In this document: positions 54,554 through 61,942 of the stretch, piece by piece
Layout: every line of letters begins with the position of its first letter
Position numbering within the stretch: the stretch's first letter is position 1
Assembly (NCBI GenBank): GCA_017626395.1
Contig: JAGAIU010000042.1
Span: forward strand, 1 to 64,000
Direction of reading: 5' to 3'
Origin: Clostridia bacterium
GTDB lineage: Bacteria > Bacillota > Clostridia > TANB77 > CAG-465
DNA: 64,000 bases
Notes under the pieces: generated by a model
What the model was told of the DNA's origin: nothing
Seen by the model: the letters and a program-made list of their open reading frames with translations, nothing else
The model's database searches: none
Position numbers and translations under genes: made by a program

Positions 54554-55621
54554 ATGATTGAAAAAGATAAAATAAGTATAATAGTTCCTGTGTACAATGT
54601 TGAAAAATTTTTAGTACAATGTGTGGAATCTATTACTAATCAGACATATAAAAATATAGAAATAATTTTAGTAGATGATGGATCTACAGATAACTCTGGA
54701 AAAATTTGTGATGAGTTAGCAACTAAAGATGAAAGAATCAAAGTTATACATAAAGAAAATGCAGGGGTATCATGTGCCAGAAATGTTGGTATGGATGCTG
54801 CTACAGGAGAATACTTAATGTTTCCTGATTCAGATGATTTTTTATTTGAAAATTCATGTGAAGTTTTAGTAAATAAAATAAAATCTGAAAAAGCAGATTT
54901 TGTTATCGGAAATTATTCAAACTGTAATGAAGATGGAACTTTATGGGAGAAGCCTGTTTTTAATAAAGAAAAATATAAAGAATTTAGACTTAGTATAAAA
55001 GATTGCAGAGATTCTTTCTTTGTTATGAATTCTGCTGCTTGGAATAAGATTTTTAATCATGAATTTATATTAAAAATTGGAGCAAGATTTGCAGAAGGAT
55101 ATACTATAGCAGAAGATGCTATGTTTACAACATATTGCTTTATAAAATCTAAAAAGGTATTTTATTTACCGGATATAATTTATGCATATAGAAGAAGAGC
55201 AGCTACAACTTCTGCTTCTGTTAACTGCACAAGTGGTTACTTCTATGCTATCAATAAATCTTATTTAAGAATTTATGAAAATTTTAGAGATAATGATGAA
55301 ATAGAATTTTATAGATGCTTTTATGCAAAAAGTATGACATATATGCTTTATAAATTTATTGATTCTACACTTTTATCATATGATGAAAGATTAGATGTAC
55401 TAATGGAGATGAGATGGTTTTATAAGTTAAGTGTTGACTTAGAGGTTCCTGCATGTCAAGAATCATTATCAGTAATTATAAATAAAATAATTAGTGGTGA
55501 TTATAAAGATGTAATTGATATTTGTAGTGTGGTAGCAGATATACGTAAAACACTTCCAAAAGACATTAAAGAAAATATGTCAAAACCAGACTCTGAAATG
55601 TATGAGAAGATTTTAAGATAG
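54554..55621 (+). CDS. Family 2 glycosyltransferase, first of three
   Basis: A 355-residue GT-A-fold enzyme. It starts ISIIVPVYNVEKFLVQCVESI, with LVDDGSTDNSG and the metal-binding DSDD. The C-terminal 150 residues are helical without clear membrane segments. It likely adds a sugar to a surface glycan; donor and acceptor are unknown. It is the first gene behind the c-di-AMP riboswitch. Confidence 0.9.
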   Translation: MIEKDKISIIVPVYNVEKFLVQCVESITNQTYKNIEIILVDDGSTDNSGKICDELATKDERIKVIHKENAGVSCARNVGMDAATGEYLMFPDSDDFLFENSCEVLVNKIKSEKADFVIGNYSNCNEDGTLWEKPVFNKEKYKEFRLSIKDCRDSFFVMNSAAWNKIFNHEFILKIGARFAEGYTIAEDAMFTTYCFIKSKKVFYLPDIIYAYRRRAATTSASVNCTSGYFYAINKSYLRIYENFRDNDEIEFYRCFYAKSMTYMLYKFIDSTLLSYDERLDVLMEMRWFYKLSVDLEVPACQESLSVIINKIISGDYKDVIDICSVVADIRKTLPKDIKENMSKPDSEMYEKILR

Positions 55622-55633
55622 AGGTGGCTAGAT

Positions 55634-56650
55634 ATGGAAGAATTAATTAGTGTAATAGTACCAATTTATAAAGTTGAAAAATATCTTAGAAGATGTATAG
55701 ATAGTATATTAAATCAAACATATTCTAATTTAGAAGTTATTTTAGTAGATGATGGTTCTCCAGATAACTGTCCTGCTATTGTTGATGAATATGCAAAATC
55801 AGACAAAAGAATAAAAGTTATACATAAAGAAAATGGTGGGATTTCTAGTAGTAGAAATGCTGGATTAAAAATTGCAACTGGAGAATACGTGGCTTTTGTA
55901 GATAGTGATGATAGTATTGATAAAATGAAATATGAAGTGTTATATAAATTGATAAAAAAATATGATGCTGATATTTCAATTGATGAATTAGTAAGAGTAA
56001 AGGAAGACGAATTAGGTGATTTGATAATTCCAAATCTTGACGTTGATAATATCGAAGAAAAAGAAATCACAAAAAGTGAAGCTTTAAAAATGATATTGAT
56101 GAATAACGATGTAGGTAATTATTCTTTTACTAAACTATTTAAAAGAAAACTATTTGAGAAAGTTTGCTTTCCTGAAGGAAAAGTTTATGAAGACGTTGCT
56201 ACTCTTTATAAAGTAGTGGATAAAGCTGAAAAAATTGCTTATACAAATCAAAAATTATATTATTATTTGTACGGAAGACTTGATGCAATAACTTCAAGTT
56301 TCTCTGAAAAGAAAATAATAGATAGTTTAGAAGCATATTATAACCAATGTGAATTTATAGTAAAAAACTATTCTGATATAAAAGAATATGCACAAATTAT
56401 ATGGATAAAGATGTATACTAGTGCTATGGAAAAAATATTAATGAATAACTATGAAGAACTTTGGAATAGTAGCAATGTAGAAGAAAAATATCAATATTTT
56501 AAAAATACTATAGAGCAAATTGATGAAAAAGAGTTATTTAAAAATTTAGAACCATATCGTTTTGTTAGTGCTGTATTACTAAAAAATAGTAGAGATTCGT
56601 ACAAGTATATGTTTCCTAGTATTTTTAAAAATCTAAAAAATAAAAATTAA
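55634..56650 (+). CDS. Family 2 glycosyltransferase, second of three
   Basis: A 338-residue paralogue: ISVIVPIYKVEKYLRRCIDSI, LVDDGSPDNCP and VDSDDS. It lies 12 bases after the first gene with ribosome site GAGGTGG. Its closeness to the first and the shared architecture suggest duplication within one glycan pathway. Confidence 0.9.
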   Translation: MEELISVIVPIYKVEKYLRRCIDSILNQTYSNLEVILVDDGSPDNCPAIVDEYAKSDKRIKVIHKENGGISSSRNAGLKIATGEYVAFVDSDDSIDKMKYEVLYKLIKKYDADISIDELVRVKEDELGDLIIPNLDVDNIEEKEITKSEALKMILMNNDVGNYSFTKLFKRKLFEKVCFPEGKVYEDVATLYKVVDKAEKIAYTNQKLYYYLYGRLDAITSSFSEKKIIDSLEAYYNQCEFIVKNYSDIKEYAQIIWIKMYTSAMEKILMNNYEELWNSSNVEEKYQYFKNTIEQIDEKELFKNLEPYRFVSAVLLKNSRDSYKYMFPSIFKNLKNKN

Positions 56651-56676
56651 AACTAGGAAAGGAGAGAAAAAAGAAT

Positions 56677-57471
56677 ATGAAAGATAAATTAAAATTTTCT
56701 ATTATTATTCCAAATTATAACAAAGGGGCTTATGTTGAAGAATGCTTAAATAGTATTTTTAATCAAACATATAAAAACTTTGAAGTACTTGTAATCGATG
56801 ACGGAAGTACAGATAATAGTTTAGAAGAAATAAATAAATTTCAAATAAACAAACTACTAAAAACTGAAAGAAAACAAGCTGGTGGAGCTAGAAATTTAGG
56901 ACTAAAATATGCTACTGGAGATTATATTGTTTTTCTAGATAGCGATGATTACTTAACAAGTGATGATGTTTTAGAGAAACTAGCTGATTTTATAGATGAT
57001 GAAGATATTATATTTTTAAACTATACAAAAGATAAATTTGGTGTTGTTTCAGAATCAATAGAGCAAGAAGAAACTATTGGACAAAAAATTGAAACTACTA
57101 ATTTAGGTTGTCCTACAAAATGTTTTAAAAGAACTTTGCTAGATGGAATTTCTTTTCCAGAGTGCAAACGTTTTGAGGATATAGCATTTACATTAGAAGC
57201 TGTATGTAAAAGTAAAAGCTATAAATGTTTTAATACTTCATTTTTTACATATCGTAAAGTTCAAAATAGTAACTTTACTTCTACTATGAATGAACAAGCT
57301 ATAATAGATATGTTAGAAGAACAAATTAAAATGTATAGAATGTGTATGAAATATCCCGAGCATAAACAATATTTAATGAATAGGATAACAAGAGATAGAT
57401 TACCAGTAAAAATAGAAGTGCTAAATCATTTCCTTGTAACTGGTGAAAATGAATATCATAAATATTTTTAA
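56677..57471 (+). CDS. Family 2 glycosyltransferase, third of three
   Basis: A 264-residue enzyme, shorter than its neighbours: FSIIIPNYNKGAYVEECLNSI, VIDDGSTDNS, GGARNLGLKYATGDYIVFLDSDD. The C-terminal helical part is reduced. Ribosome site AAAGGAGAG. Last gene of the riboswitch-controlled operon. Confidence 0.9.
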   Translation: MKDKLKFSIIIPNYNKGAYVEECLNSIFNQTYKNFEVLVIDDGSTDNSLEEINKFQINKLLKTERKQAGGARNLGLKYATGDYIVFLDSDDYLTSDDVLEKLADFIDDEDIIFLNYTKDKFGVVSESIEQEETIGQKIETTNLGCPTKCFKRTLLDGISFPECKRFEDIAFTLEAVCKSKSYKCFNTSFFTYRKVQNSNFTSTMNEQAIIDMLEEQIKMYRMCMKYPEHKQYLMNRITRDRLPVKIEVLNHFLVTGENEYHKYF

Positions 57472-57690: not shown

Positions 57691-57714
57691 CACCTCATAT
57701 AATATTATGAGGTG
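57691..57714 (+). promoter_or_regulatory. Hairpin that masks the yabG ribosome site
   Basis: CACCTCAT (57691-57698) pairs perfectly with ATGAGGTG (57707-57714), an 8-bp stem with an 8-base loop. The right arm contains the ribosome site GAGGTG used for the TTG start six bases later, so it can limit translation. Confidence 0.7.
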
Positions 57715-57720
57715 ATTAGT

Positions 57721-58590
57721 TTGCCAAAATTTAAAATAGGAGACATAGTAGCAAGGAAATCGTATAATTATGATGTGTTATTTAGAATAACAAATATACA
57801 ACCTAATGGTATAGTAGATTTAGTGGGAATAACTGTAAGAATAATAGCAGATGCACACGAATATGATTTAAAATTAATAGGAAAAGAAGAATTAGAAATT
57901 AAACTTAGAAATATAGAAATGTCAAGAAGAGCTAGATTAAATAGATCTTTTAATAATATGAGTAATAAGAAATTTAAAATGAATTATATTAGGGAAAAGG
58001 AACCTAATTATTTTATTTATCAAAAAGATAAAACATATAAAAAACCTGGTAGAATATTACATATAGACGGTGATCCAGAATACACAGAGAAATGTAGAGA
58101 GATGTATAAAAAATTTGGAATAACAGCAACTGTCTTAAATATAGAGGAGAAAGAGCAATATAAACAGATATATGCTCTTCTTCAAAGATATAAACCTGAA
58201 ATATTAATTTTAACAGGTCATGATGCCTTTATTAAAAGAAGAAATGATATATACAATATAGATAATTATAAAAATTCAAAATATTATATACAAGCTGTCC
58301 TAGAAGCGAGAAAGTATGAACATAATTTAGATAATTTAGTTATATTTGCTGGTGCATGTCAAAGTTATTATGAAGCAATAATATCTGCAGGAGCAAATTT
58401 TGCTAGTGCACCAAAACGTGTACTAATAGATATGATGGATCCATTAATAGTTGCAGAGACTGTAGCTTATACACCAGTAAATGAATTTGTGCCACTTGAG
58501 ATTATTATCTCTAATACAAGAGAGGGAATAGATGGAATAGGTGGACTTCAAACAAGAGGACAATATAGAGTAGGAATGCCAGGATTATAG
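57721..58590 (+). CDS. yabG: Sporulation-specific protease YabG
   Basis: A 289-residue YabG, which processes spore coat and morphogenetic proteins, and in Clostridioides difficile the germination protease precursor. The N-terminus KFKIGDIVARKSYNYDVLF, the central ILTGHDAF and FAGACQSYYEAIISAGANFASAP are family landmarks. The TTG at 57721 is chosen because GAGGTG ends six bases upstream and it restores the normal N-terminus. Its presence indicates endospore formation. Its ribosome site lies in a hairpin. Confidence 0.93.
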   Translation: MPKFKIGDIVARKSYNYDVLFRITNIQPNGIVDLVGITVRIIADAHEYDLKLIGKEELEIKLRNIEMSRRARLNRSFNNMSNKKFKMNYIREKEPNYFIYQKDKTYKKPGRILHIDGDPEYTEKCREMYKKFGITATVLNIEEKEQYKQIYALLQRYKPEILILTGHDAFIKRRNDIYNIDNYKNSKYYIQAVLEARKYEHNLDNLVIFAGACQSYYEAIISAGANFASAPKRVLIDMMDPLIVAETVAYTPVNEFVPLEIIISNTREGIDGIGGLQTRGQYRVGMPGL

Positions 58591-58631
58591 TAAATAATTC
58601 TGGTGTTTTTTATTTTGAAAATTATGTATTG

Positions 58632-58660
58632 TTGACTTTTTTTTTTTTTTAGTGTATTCT
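58632..58660 (+). promoter_or_regulatory. Promoter with a poly-T spacer
   Basis: TTGACT (58632-58637), 17-base spacer, TATTCT (58655-58660). Thirteen of the 17 spacer bases, with the last -35 base, form an unbroken run of 14 T (58637-58650), so spacer length may vary by replication slippage. Confidence 0.65.
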
Positions 58661-58695
58661 TTACTTGTAAATTTAGAGTGTTAGGGGATGTTAAT

Positions 58696-60303
58696 ATGAA
58701 TTTATATAGATGTGCAGCGTGCGGAAGCACACGTGTAATGCCTGATAGTAAAAAAGAGGGATACGATATTAAAAAAGGAGTTGCAGGAACTGTTTTGTTT
58801 GGTGCAGCGGGTGCCGTTATGGGAGTAAATGGCAACGAAAAAACATATTATCATTGTATGGAATGTGGACAAACTTTATCATATACTATGTCAGAAAGTA
58901 CTAAAAAAATGATAGATAGCTATCTATTAAATCCAGATGAGTATAAAGAAATGATTGAAATGCAGAAAAAAATATATCCTAATATAGAGGATAGAGATAT
59001 AAGAAACATTCAAATAGATAAAAAAGAAAAGTTCAATAGTAATGAAGAATTAGCAGATGCAATTTGGGAATATTATAATAAAACTAAAATTCCATATATT
59101 GCGGATGATATGCTTGAAGAAGGTGTATTAGGAAAAGATTGCTATAGAAAAATAGAATATCCTGTAAGTATTTATAATGCTATGGATATTTTAATAGAGA
59201 AAGGGTTAGCTACTTTAGAAGTTAAAGGAAAATCGGGAGACAGAAAAATTTATTATACGTTTTATAGCAATGCTGAAGATATTAAAAGAAATTTAAATAA
59301 TCTTATTGTCGAAAAAGAGTATAAGAAAATATTTGATACCAATAGAGAAGAGTTAATAAATATATTTTTAAAATTAATAGAAGAAAATAAAAAAATAATT
59401 TGTAATCAAGCTGTTGAAAGACTAAGTGATATTTTAAAAGAAAAAGGATATTCAAAAGATGATTTAGTTATAGAAAAACTCTCTATAGGTACGATAAAAA
59501 GTGCAAAAAAACTTGATTTGATTGGATTTGAAGAAAAAGAAAATTTTGAACAAAGTGTAATAATATTTTTAAGCGAAGAAATATATTTAAAAAAGCAAAA
59601 AGATAAGGAACAAGAAAATAATGAGATAGAAAAAAAAATACTTGAAAGTTTAAAAAATGGCAGTAAAAAAACTATTGAAGAAATACAAGATTCAAATGAG
59701 AGTTTAAAAGAAATAAGTAATCAGAGAATATTACGTTGTTTGATAAAATTTAAAGATGATGGATTGGTAATAAAAGAAGCTATAAACAACCAAACTTATT
59801 TTTCATTGACCAAAATACATGAAAATGTTAAAGAAAAAAATAGAGAGCAAGAACTCAAGGATATAGAAGAAAATGTACTTGAGAGTCTAAAAGGTTCGTA
59901 TAGAAAAACTATTCCGGATATTCAAAACTCAAACGAAAAATTAAAAGATGTAAGCTATCAAATGATATCTATGCGCTTAAGACTACTTATGGAAAGAGGA
60001 TTAGTAATACGAAAAATTATAGATAAAACAAGTTATTTTTCATTACCTGAAACGTATAAAAAACTTAAAGAAAAGGAAGAAAAAGAAATAGAAGGAATTA
60101 ACAAAAAAAATGAAGAATTTAATAGTAATTTAAATTTAAAGATAAATAAATTAATCCAAGAAAAAGAAATGCTGCTTAAGATAGTAGCCGAAAACAGATT
60201 TAAATTATTTGGTGCGGGAGCTAAAATGAGAAGAGAGGCAGAAGAAAAAATAGTGGAAATAGATATAGCTGTTTTTAAGCTTAAGAATCAATTAAAAAAA
60301 TAG
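58696..60303 (+). CDS. Zinc-ribbon protein with repeated winged-helix-like domains
   Basis: A 535-residue protein of unknown function. A four-Cys zinc ribbon (CAACGS near residue 6 and CMECG near 54) encloses a Gly/Ala-rich loop. After a helical part with a winged-helix-like stretch (about 120-200), two homologous units of about 75 residues follow (around 315-385 and 390-465). Both read LESLK, then KKTI or RKTI, then S-N-E-x-L-K, and end DGLVIKEA / RGLVIRKI ... SYFSL, a winged-helix pattern. A coiled-coil tail closes it. A DNA- or RNA-binding regulator is likely. The ATG at 58696 follows AGGGGATG. Confidence 0.7.
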   Translation: MNLYRCAACGSTRVMPDSKKEGYDIKKGVAGTVLFGAAGAVMGVNGNEKTYYHCMECGQTLSYTMSESTKKMIDSYLLNPDEYKEMIEMQKKIYPNIEDRDIRNIQIDKKEKFNSNEELADAIWEYYNKTKIPYIADDMLEEGVLGKDCYRKIEYPVSIYNAMDILIEKGLATLEVKGKSGDRKIYYTFYSNAEDIKRNLNNLIVEKEYKKIFDTNREELINIFLKLIEENKKIICNQAVERLSDILKEKGYSKDDLVIEKLSIGTIKSAKKLDLIGFEEKENFEQSVIIFLSEEIYLKKQKDKEQENNEIEKKILESLKNGSKKTIEEIQDSNESLKEISNQRILRCLIKFKDDGLVIKEAINNQTYFSLTKIHENVKEKNREQELKDIEENVLESLKGSYRKTIPDIQNSNEKLKDVSYQMISMRLRLLMERGLVIRKIIDKTSYFSLPETYKKLKEKEEKEIEGINKKNEEFNSNLNLKINKLIQEKEMLLKIVAENRFKLFGAGAKMRREAEEKIVEIDIAVFKLKNQLKK

Positions 60304-60421
60304 TGAGTAAGAAAATTTTTAACAAATGATAATCTTTTAGCTGTGAGAGTAGATTTAAAGAAATTAACAGTGGATATTAAAAATGCAGATTTAAAAAATA
60401 GTCTGTAGTTAAGTATTAATA

Positions 60422-60447
60422 AAGGCCGTTCAAATGAACGGCTTTTA
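60422..60447 (+). terminator. Terminator in the gap before the zeta toxin gene
   Basis: Perfect stem GCCGTTC/GAACGGC around AAAT, followed by TTTTA. Confidence 0.88.
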
Positions 60448-60539
60448 TCTTTTAGTTTACAATATTTTTATCAATTTGTTGTATAAATAAAAATAATTAT
60501 ATATAATAAGTTTAGTATTAGAATTATAAAGAGGGTATA

Positions 60540-61370
60540 ATGGATAAGGATAAATTTAAATTAACAAATGAAGAACATGAGCAAATATATAAGTATATTG
60601 AAGAACAAACTTTTTTAAATAAAGTTTGTTCAGAAAAGCCAGTAGCAATAATTTTAGGCGGACAACCAGGAGCTGGAAAATCTTTTTTAATAAAAGAAGC
60701 TAAAAAAGATTTTTTAGATAAAGATATAGTAGTTATTAATGGTGATGAATATAGAAGATGGCATCCAAGATCAAAAGAGATTTTGAATAGTGATGAAGAA
60801 AAATATGCTTTTTATACAGATCCAGATGTTAGAGAATGGACATCTAATTTATTTGAGAAAGCCATAAAAAATAAATATAATATTATATTTGAAGGTACAA
60901 TGAGAACTAATAGAATATGTGATACAATAAAGAGATTAAAAGAAGAAGGATTTATTGTAAAAATTAAAGTTCTAGCTGTGCATGAAATAGATAGTCGTAT
61001 ATCTACAATAGAAAGATATGAATCACAATTAAATTATGAAGGACATGGTAGAAAAACACCAGTAGATTCGCATATTAATGCATACAATGGTATGATAAAC
61101 ACTTTAGAAGATATAGAAGCAGAAAGAATGTTTGATACATTAGAAATTTTAACACGTAAAGGTGAGTGCGTATATTCTAATGATAATGTGCTAAAGAAAG
61201 TATACAGTAAGTATGACTCAAATATTCAAGATACATTAGTAAAGAGTAGAAATGAGCAAAAGCCTCCTTTAGTAGAGGTTAAAGAAAGAATTGAAGCTAT
61301 TTCAAAGTATATGTTAAAAAATGGAGAGTCAATTATTGAATTAGAAAAAATACTTAAAGAATACACTTAA
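60540..61370 (+). CDS. Zeta-toxin-family kinase
   Basis: A 276-residue zeta/PezT-like protein. The P-loop is GGQPGAGKS (40-48); NGDEYRRWHP follows and supplies the acidic residue and basic pocket of the family; FEGTMR and the helix with HEIDSR come next. Zeta toxins phosphorylate UDP-N-acetylglucosamine and block wall synthesis, or act as related kinases. No epsilon or PezA antitoxin is upstream; a 76-residue gene follows 22 bases downstream. GAGGGT precedes the ATG. Confidence 0.88.
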   Translation: MDKDKFKLTNEEHEQIYKYIEEQTFLNKVCSEKPVAIILGGQPGAGKSFLIKEAKKDFLDKDIVVINGDEYRRWHPRSKEILNSDEEKYAFYTDPDVREWTSNLFEKAIKNKYNIIFEGTMRTNRICDTIKRLKEEGFIVKIKVLAVHEIDSRISTIERYESQLNYEGHGRKTPVDSHINAYNGMINTLEDIEAERMFDTLEILTRKGECVYSNDNVLKKVYSKYDSNIQDTLVKSRNEQKPPLVEVKERIEAISKYMLKNGESIIELEKILKEYT

Positions 61371-61392
61371 TATAAAAATACAAGGAGGGAAT

Positions 61393-61623
61393 ATGTTTAA
61401 CAACGGATTAATGAATGCAGATGTAGCAATAGAAATAATAGCAGAAATGTTAGCAAATTGTGTTTTTGCTTTGAAAAGCGAAAAAGATGAAAATAAAATT
61501 AAAGAACTAGAAGAAAAGAAAAAACTTTATACCATACAAAGAGAAAAGATTTATTCAGGAGATATAGAAACTATAAATTATGTGATAGAAAATTATGGTA
61601 AAAAATTAAAAGAACAAAGATAA
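61393..61623 (+). CDS. Small helical protein downstream of the zeta gene, candidate antitoxin
   Basis: A 76-residue, mainly helical, charged protein with a central coiled-coil-like stretch (KELEEKKKLYTIQREKIYSG). It lies 22 bases after the zeta gene with ribosome site AAGGAGGG, and a terminator follows, so the two form a closed unit. Size and helical character fit an epsilon-like neutralising partner, although the order is toxin first. No family match by eye. Confidence 0.6.
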   Translation: MFNNGLMNADVAIEIIAEMLANCVFALKSEKDENKIKELEEKKKLYTIQREKIYSGDIETINYVIENYGKKLKEQR

Positions 61624-61663
61624 ATATGCAGAGGTTTTTGATAATAGCCTCTGCATATTTTAT
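61624..61663 (+). terminator. Terminator after the zeta unit
   Basis: ATATGCAGAGG pairs perfectly with CCTCTGCATAT across a 13-base loop, followed by TTTTA. Confidence 0.82.
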
Positions 61664-61723: not shown

Positions 61724-61942
61724 ATGGACAAGTATGTAACAGATGAACAATTAAATGATTTACAAGACTGTTTAAGTGATAAAGAAAAAGCTAAAATTGA
61801 TGGAAAAGGCCTTTTTGGTAAATTGTTTAAAAAGATAAGAGATAAAAAACAAGCAGAGTATATTGAAGAATATGATGCTATGATTAAAAATATAGAAGAA
61901 GACGACATATCAAATATAATACCAGAGGAGTATAAAAAGTAG
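61724..61942 (+). CDS. Small charged protein in the HExxH cluster
   Basis: A 72-residue (from ATG 61724) Asp/Glu/Lys-rich helical protein with no membrane segment. GGTTGG-type ribosome site precedes; a GTG four codons up is possible. It begins a three-gene unit with the HExxH protein 14 bases downstream. Function unknown. Confidence 0.6.
   Translation: MDKYVTDEQLNDLQDCLSDKEKAKIDGKGLFGKLFKKIRDKKQAEYIEEYDAMIKNIEEDDISNIIPEEYKK

Follow-up and report, generated by a model that had tools for sequence, protein, structure and literature searches.

A poly-T promoter spacer ahead of an accessory gene: a candidate slippage switch in a genus of Clostridia

What is an uninterrupted run of 14 T residues doing inside an apparent promoter, directly upstream of a gene for a putative regulator? 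Here, we explored this question for a 64,000-nucleotide stretch of DNA from a Clostridia bacterium, hereafter the window (assembly GCA_017626395.1, contig JAGAIU010000042.1, positions 1 to 64,000), which is taken from contig C21 of a draft genome of 78 contigs and 1.99 Mb (G000 in our comparisons). An initial annotation had proposed that gain or loss of T residues could shift the spacing of this promoter and thereby cause phase variation. We find that slippage altering promoter spacing best explains the tract, with a probability of roughly 0.55, and that an on/off switch is plausible. The features on which the argument turns are the following.

57712-58590, plus strand: yabG (peptidase U57; Pfam PF05582, E 4.6e-103), a conserved gene and the left border of the accessory island described below
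58575-58611, plus strand: intrinsic terminator of yabG, a hairpin overlapping the stop codon, then a T-rich tail
58622-58626, plus strand: TTATG element, with constant spacing to the cassette TTG that follows it, and common to the congeners G022 (30 copies) and G015
58632-58637, plus strand: -35 hexamer TTGACT, from the sequence and a promoter scan
58637-58650, plus strand: T14 homopolymer
58638-58654, plus strand: spacer of 17 nt, T13 plus AGTG
58651-58660, plus strand: AGTGTATTCT, the spacer end AGTG plus the -10 hexamer TATTCT (58655-58660)
58683-58688, plus strand: ribosome-binding site AGGGGA, 7 bases before the ATG
58696-60303, plus strand: 535-aa protein with an N-terminal zinc ribbon, two repeats and a C-terminal helical region
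60419-60448, plus strand: intrinsic terminator downstream of the 535-aa gene

The run is intergenic, between yabG and the 535-aa open reading frame, whose ATG at 58696 is well placed, 45 nt further on. The nearly all-T spacer of 17 bases between TTGACT and TATTCT described in the initial annotation indeed lies at these coordinates; the run of 14 T, its length read from a single draft assembly, is likewise present, but only 13 of its residues belong to the spacer, as the first one doubles as the final T of the -35 hexamer. The homopolymer is long enough to be mutable and is placed between -35-like and -10-like hexamers, where its length could affect transcription. A spacing of 17 nt is the mode among the TTGAC-type promoter candidates of the genome (41 of 79). 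The other TTGACA/TTGACT candidates have mixed spacers, with a mean longest T run of 2.5, so that T-rich spacers are rejected as a general trait of promoters in this genome; the impression, gained by eye, that several T10 runs also form 17-nt spacers was not confirmed by a scan that began only close to the tract. The hexamers themselves carry little weight: TTGACT and TATTCT match the sigma-70 consensus at 9 of 12 positions (the -10 alone at 4 of 6), and comparable 9/12 sites occur 34 times in 4.5 kb, as against 33.1 in shuffled sequences, which is chance level. We therefore dropped the plain consensus match as evidence, and the chance-level hexamers, together with the poor -10, count against a switch.

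Chance-level hexamers are also what would be seen if the run were incidental, either a neutral run that arose in AT-rich intergenic sequence or a miscounted length in a draft assembled into as many as 78 contigs. The distribution of run lengths, however, argues otherwise. Within the window, no other homopolymer exceeds 9, and across all 1.99 Mb of the genome A/T runs of 10 occur 11 times and those of 11 once, followed by none of 12 or 13 and then two of 14. Against a Markov background computed on 840 kb of genome stretches, simulation at order 6 produced no run longer than 11; models of order 2 and 4 do permit some runs of at least 12, to the benefit of the incidental reading, but the real runs above 7 drop faster than expected at any order from 2 to 6, and far faster than the low orders predict, before the two runs of 14 appear beyond the empty gap. 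The T14 is a strong length outlier. Furthermore, a chance origin is unlikely because the tract sits inside a cassette that recurs in two congeners, with both flanks matching. Altogether, we regard an incidental run as distinctly improbable.

Another possibility is that the T14 is the tail of the yabG intrinsic terminator, with TTGACT forming part of its hairpin. Long T tracts do follow hairpins at several places in the genus, and the second T14 of the genome (C68:28509) sits directly behind a strong one (-13.0 kcal/mol, z -3.6), downstream of a gene that, from its protein read by eye, is deoC-like. That second tract is probably the terminator tail of this upstream gene and therefore not a second promoter of the type found in the window. 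A surface protein of 1241 aa with 12 MucBP repeats begins 70 nt after it. At the locus in question, by contrast, yabG has a separate terminator hairpin just upstream, at 58575-58611 (-13.6 kcal/mol, z -4.8), whose stem sequence is also present in congeners that lack the inserted genes described below, and there is no hairpin directly before the T14: the segment 58604-58655 folds no better than shuffled sequences (z +0.8). Folding thus leaves the terminator-tail reading hardly tenable.

Related promoters also occur in congeners. A long T run followed by AGTGTATKCT is found in 3 of the 28 genomes of the genus, namely G000, G015 and G022, and, among 84,980 species genomes, T11AGTGTATKCT matched only CANRGL01 (G022) and CANQUF01 (G015), the isolate labels of which start with ‘Lapin’, suggesting a rabbit gut origin. 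The extended pattern TTATG-N5-TTG-NN-T6-N(0-12)-AGTGTAT, searched over 385 genomes of the order, captures the cassette TTATG-N5-TTG-NN-Tn-AGTGTAT once in G000 and 30 times in G022, with zero matches in the remaining genomes and zero for reversed-pattern controls; the cassette was also absent from the viral contigs searched. G015 carries two close variants, TTATGAAAACTTGACA-T12-AGTGTATGCTATAAT and TTATGGAAACTTGACA-T11-AGTGTATTAT. The promoter in the window departs from the family at 4 of the 5 bases between TTATG and TTG, as well as in the -10; judging from the sequence, it is very likely a relative of the G015/G022 cassettes.

In the multiple copies of G022, the tract is the part that varies. 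In 28 aligned copies, the tract is T12 in 4, T13 in 21 and T14 in 3, so that 7 differ from T13, whereas the flanks, 19 bases on its upstream side and 13 on its downstream side, show a single substitution in about 896 sites, if an A/T difference at their outer end is disregarded. A further copy (C4:35728) has T7 and an altered -10 region, and the paralogue downstream of it carries an early stop codon. Hence, length variation exceeds flank variation among these paralogous copies (T7, T12-T14). The differences support slippage but fall short of proof, because recombination may homogenise copies and a draft assembly can misjudge homopolymers. Where the downstream gene is readable, most G022 copies precede proteins that begin with MKNNKRGISLIVLIVTIIVIIILAA or a similar sequence and, by inspection, resemble type IV pilins; a few precede other proteins, including soluble ones. 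The pilin-like family of G022 is large, with almost identical N-termini, and many contigs of this genome end at cassette copies. Two candidate -10 elements are present in both G022 and G015: TATGCT at about 16 nt and TATAAG/TATAAT at 21 nt from the -35 (the latter found by the scan in G015). The true spacing in these genomes is therefore ambiguous, which counts against a switch, and the direction of any effect of tract length cannot be stated for them.

The same copies bear on a different reading, in which a class of regulated promoters has the T tract as a fixed structural component, tolerates one-base differences in its length and switches nothing, the tract acting either as a rigid, bent A/T stretch or within a site where a dedicated regulator or sigma factor reads TTATGAAAAC-TTG-Tn-AGTGTAT. 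Indeed, about 18 bases of the upstream block do not vary among the 28 copies of G022, a longer conserved stretch than a -35 element alone calls for, and three species share the layout. Tract lengths in these copies cluster narrowly at 12 to 14, as expected of a fixed element, which counts against a switch. Conversely, rigidity does not call for a pure homopolymer, and the mixed spacers of the other TTGACA/TTGACT candidates, like the near absence of homopolymers of at least 12 elsewhere in the genome, sit poorly with a fixed structural role; moreover, the T7 copy keeps the upstream block and yet precedes a broken gene. We consider a fixed element unlikely, although it deserves to be taken seriously.

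T runs of at least 12 are present in 22 of the 28 members of the genus. For intergenic T12+ tracts outside G022 that are followed, within 260 nt and on the same strand, by the start of a gene encoding 100 aa or more, the downstream protein has a strongly hydrophobic N-terminus in 16 of 23 cases, compared with 81 of 429 genes (19%) of the window's genome, which alone provides the baseline (Fisher p 4.5e-7, a guide only, given that the pattern was noticed before testing, that the baseline is a single genome and that some of the tracts, as noted below, may be terminators). The gene in the window is outside the 23, since a spurious antisense frame misclassed its tract; with it, the count is 16 of 24. 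The proteins behind the tracts include SpaA/thioester-domain, MucBP, leucine-rich-repeat and antigen I/II-type proteins. Long T tracts in this genus are enriched upstream of genes for surface proteins, both adhesins and pilin-like proteins. Two considerations weigh against a switch: at least a third of the tracts lie behind hairpins and are possible terminator tails, and the 535-aa protein, in contrast to the majority of gene products in the set, does not belong to the surface proteins.

A second layout also recurs. In further congeners, TTGAAA(C)..AATGTCA or AATGTA is followed by T12-T17 and then by a TGTAA.A-like element, upstream of SpaA/thioester-type and other surface proteins. Genomes G012, G020 and G024 contain A/T homopolymers of 13-18, mostly within predicted coding sequences (glycosyltransferase-like, transporter-like and others), and these intragenic runs could be either contingency tracts or the result of draft-assembly trouble.

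The promoter in the window is part of an accessory island downstream of yabG, a gene present in 25 of the 28 genomes of the genus. The island and its surroundings comprise the following features.

58604-61658, no strand: accessory island of about 3.05 kb, with approximate borders set by comparison with G003 and G025
60540-61370, plus strand: zeta-toxin-like P-loop kinase (PF06414, E 1.9e-44)
61393-61623, plus strand: small open reading frame of 76 aa, directly after the zeta-toxin-like gene
61724-61942, plus strand: conserved small open reading frame, the right border, directly behind yabG in G003 and G025

The island is missing at the same place in G003 and G025, comparison with which places the insertion after the yabG terminator and ahead of the promoter that belongs to the next conserved small open reading frame. 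It contains the gene behind the T14, the gene for the kinase and the 76-aa frame. The kinase assignment derives from a Zeta_toxin domain match of 152 bits, above the curated cut-off of 22.3, and the 76-aa frame could encode a partner of this predicted protein, although no antitoxin family was recognised in the pair (60540-61623). None of the island genes matched anti-phage defence families. The site downstream of yabG looks like a hotspot of gene gain, because congeners carry different genes there. In the favoured reading, the promoter cassette arrived with, or was captured by, the island and its zinc-ribbon/winged-helix-like and zeta-toxin-like genes. Upstream of yabG, three consecutive genes similar to glycosyltransferase family 2 occupy 54554-57471, one of them recognised by Pfam and the others by sequence likeness on reading.

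The product of the gene behind the tract was originally described as a zinc-ribbon protein with repeated winged-helix-like units. Profile matches bear out the zinc ribbon, with CxxC pairs at residues 6/9 and 54/57. The repeats are real as well, with a period of 79 residues, and two tandem winged-helix-like units occupy approximately residues 300-456; four tandem units were considered and rejected, just two aligning well. Their winged-helix nature, however, is less certain. The repeats match phrog_2440, a phage ‘transcriptional regulator’, in two stretches at 2e-5, whereas matches to HxlR, Penicillinase_R and TrmB fall below the Pfam cut-offs; structure predictions are of low confidence (pLDDT 41 and pTM 0.25 at full length, pLDDT 72 and pTM 0.36 for the repeats), and a search for relatives in solved structures returned only weak matches, with E values of 0.08 or worse. 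Searches of the 27 other members of the genus did not find the protein, and those of 385 order genomes, of phages, of viral contigs and of the species-genome collection gave no full-length relative; the best partial one, G246, has the N-terminal zinc-ribbon region in common (34% over 115 aa). Given these weak winged-helix matches and low-confidence structures, we infer only tentatively that the protein might be a regulator whose switching would affect other genes.

Under the slippage reading, we propose that the site is a promoter in which a slippage-prone T tract serves as the spacer between the -35 and -10 elements, transcription presumably starting there. Replication would add or remove T residues, so that the spacing between TTGACT and TATTCT leaves 17 nt (16 with T13, 18 with T15), and departure from the optimum would lower transcription of the 535-aa gene. 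Clonal cells would then differ in expression and could revert. With T14 and the optimal 17 nt, the assembled genome probably represents the ON state. The phase variation envisaged in the initial annotation thus gains from the outlier length of the T14, the variable tracts of G022 and the tracts before surface genes across the genus, and at the locus in the window it is still putative.

Homopolymer-driven phase variation is best known in pathogens, such as Neisseria, Helicobacter, Campylobacter and mycoplasmas. In Mycoplasma hyorhinis, the vlp genes form a surface-protein family, each member of which has a promoter with a homopolymeric poly-A spacer tract. In its layout, this family is the nearest analogue of the 30-copy G022 cassette, from which it differs in encoding lipoproteins, in using poly-A and in belonging to a mollicute. 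The poly-T promoter tract of Helicobacter pylori sabA lies upstream of the -35 rather than within the spacer, and the pilus switch of Bifidobacterium breve uses a poly-G tract. The mechanism proposed for the T14 resembles the former, an adhesin gene whose promoter region contains a repeat tract subject to slippage (PMC2715451), albeit in another phylum; B. breve is a gut commensal, again from a different phylum than the species studied here, in which replication slippage switches surface appendages (PMC9187656).

A precedent for the proposed mechanism is the Spy1336/R28-Spy1337 locus of Streptococcus pyogenes, where a variable T tract lies upstream of surface-protein and regulator genes and every single T alters both the spacing and the transcript level (PMC7098570), a comparison that rests on the described layout rather than on sequence alignment. 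Among 2,095 S. pyogenes isolates, R28 alleles with 8 to 13 T were found; expression is almost absent with 9 T but strong with 10 T (PMC7098570). By analogy with R28, the promoter in the window would be switchable and likely ON. The systems differ in that the streptococcal tract of 8-13 T separates a divergent gene pair and was studied in isolates and isogenic strains, whereas the window contains a T14 before a single gene. In a literature search that reached few of the subscription papers, we came across no description of promoters switched by poly-T tracts in gut-type Clostridia.

Tentatively, and at somewhat less than even odds, these observations could be combined into the picture of an uncultured genus with a poly-T ‘phasome’, in which a dedicated, movable cassette with a hypermutable T spacer occupies about 30 loci in one species and long T tracts precede adhesin genes in many of its species, whereas in the window the cassette stands before an accessory putative regulator, so that one switch might serve several genes. 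If the tracts vary in populations, the genus would possess a simple, countable surface-protein switch that could be read from existing metagenome reads, and the multi-copy cassette would then allow slippage rate and expression to be compared over about 30 near-identical sites in one genome.
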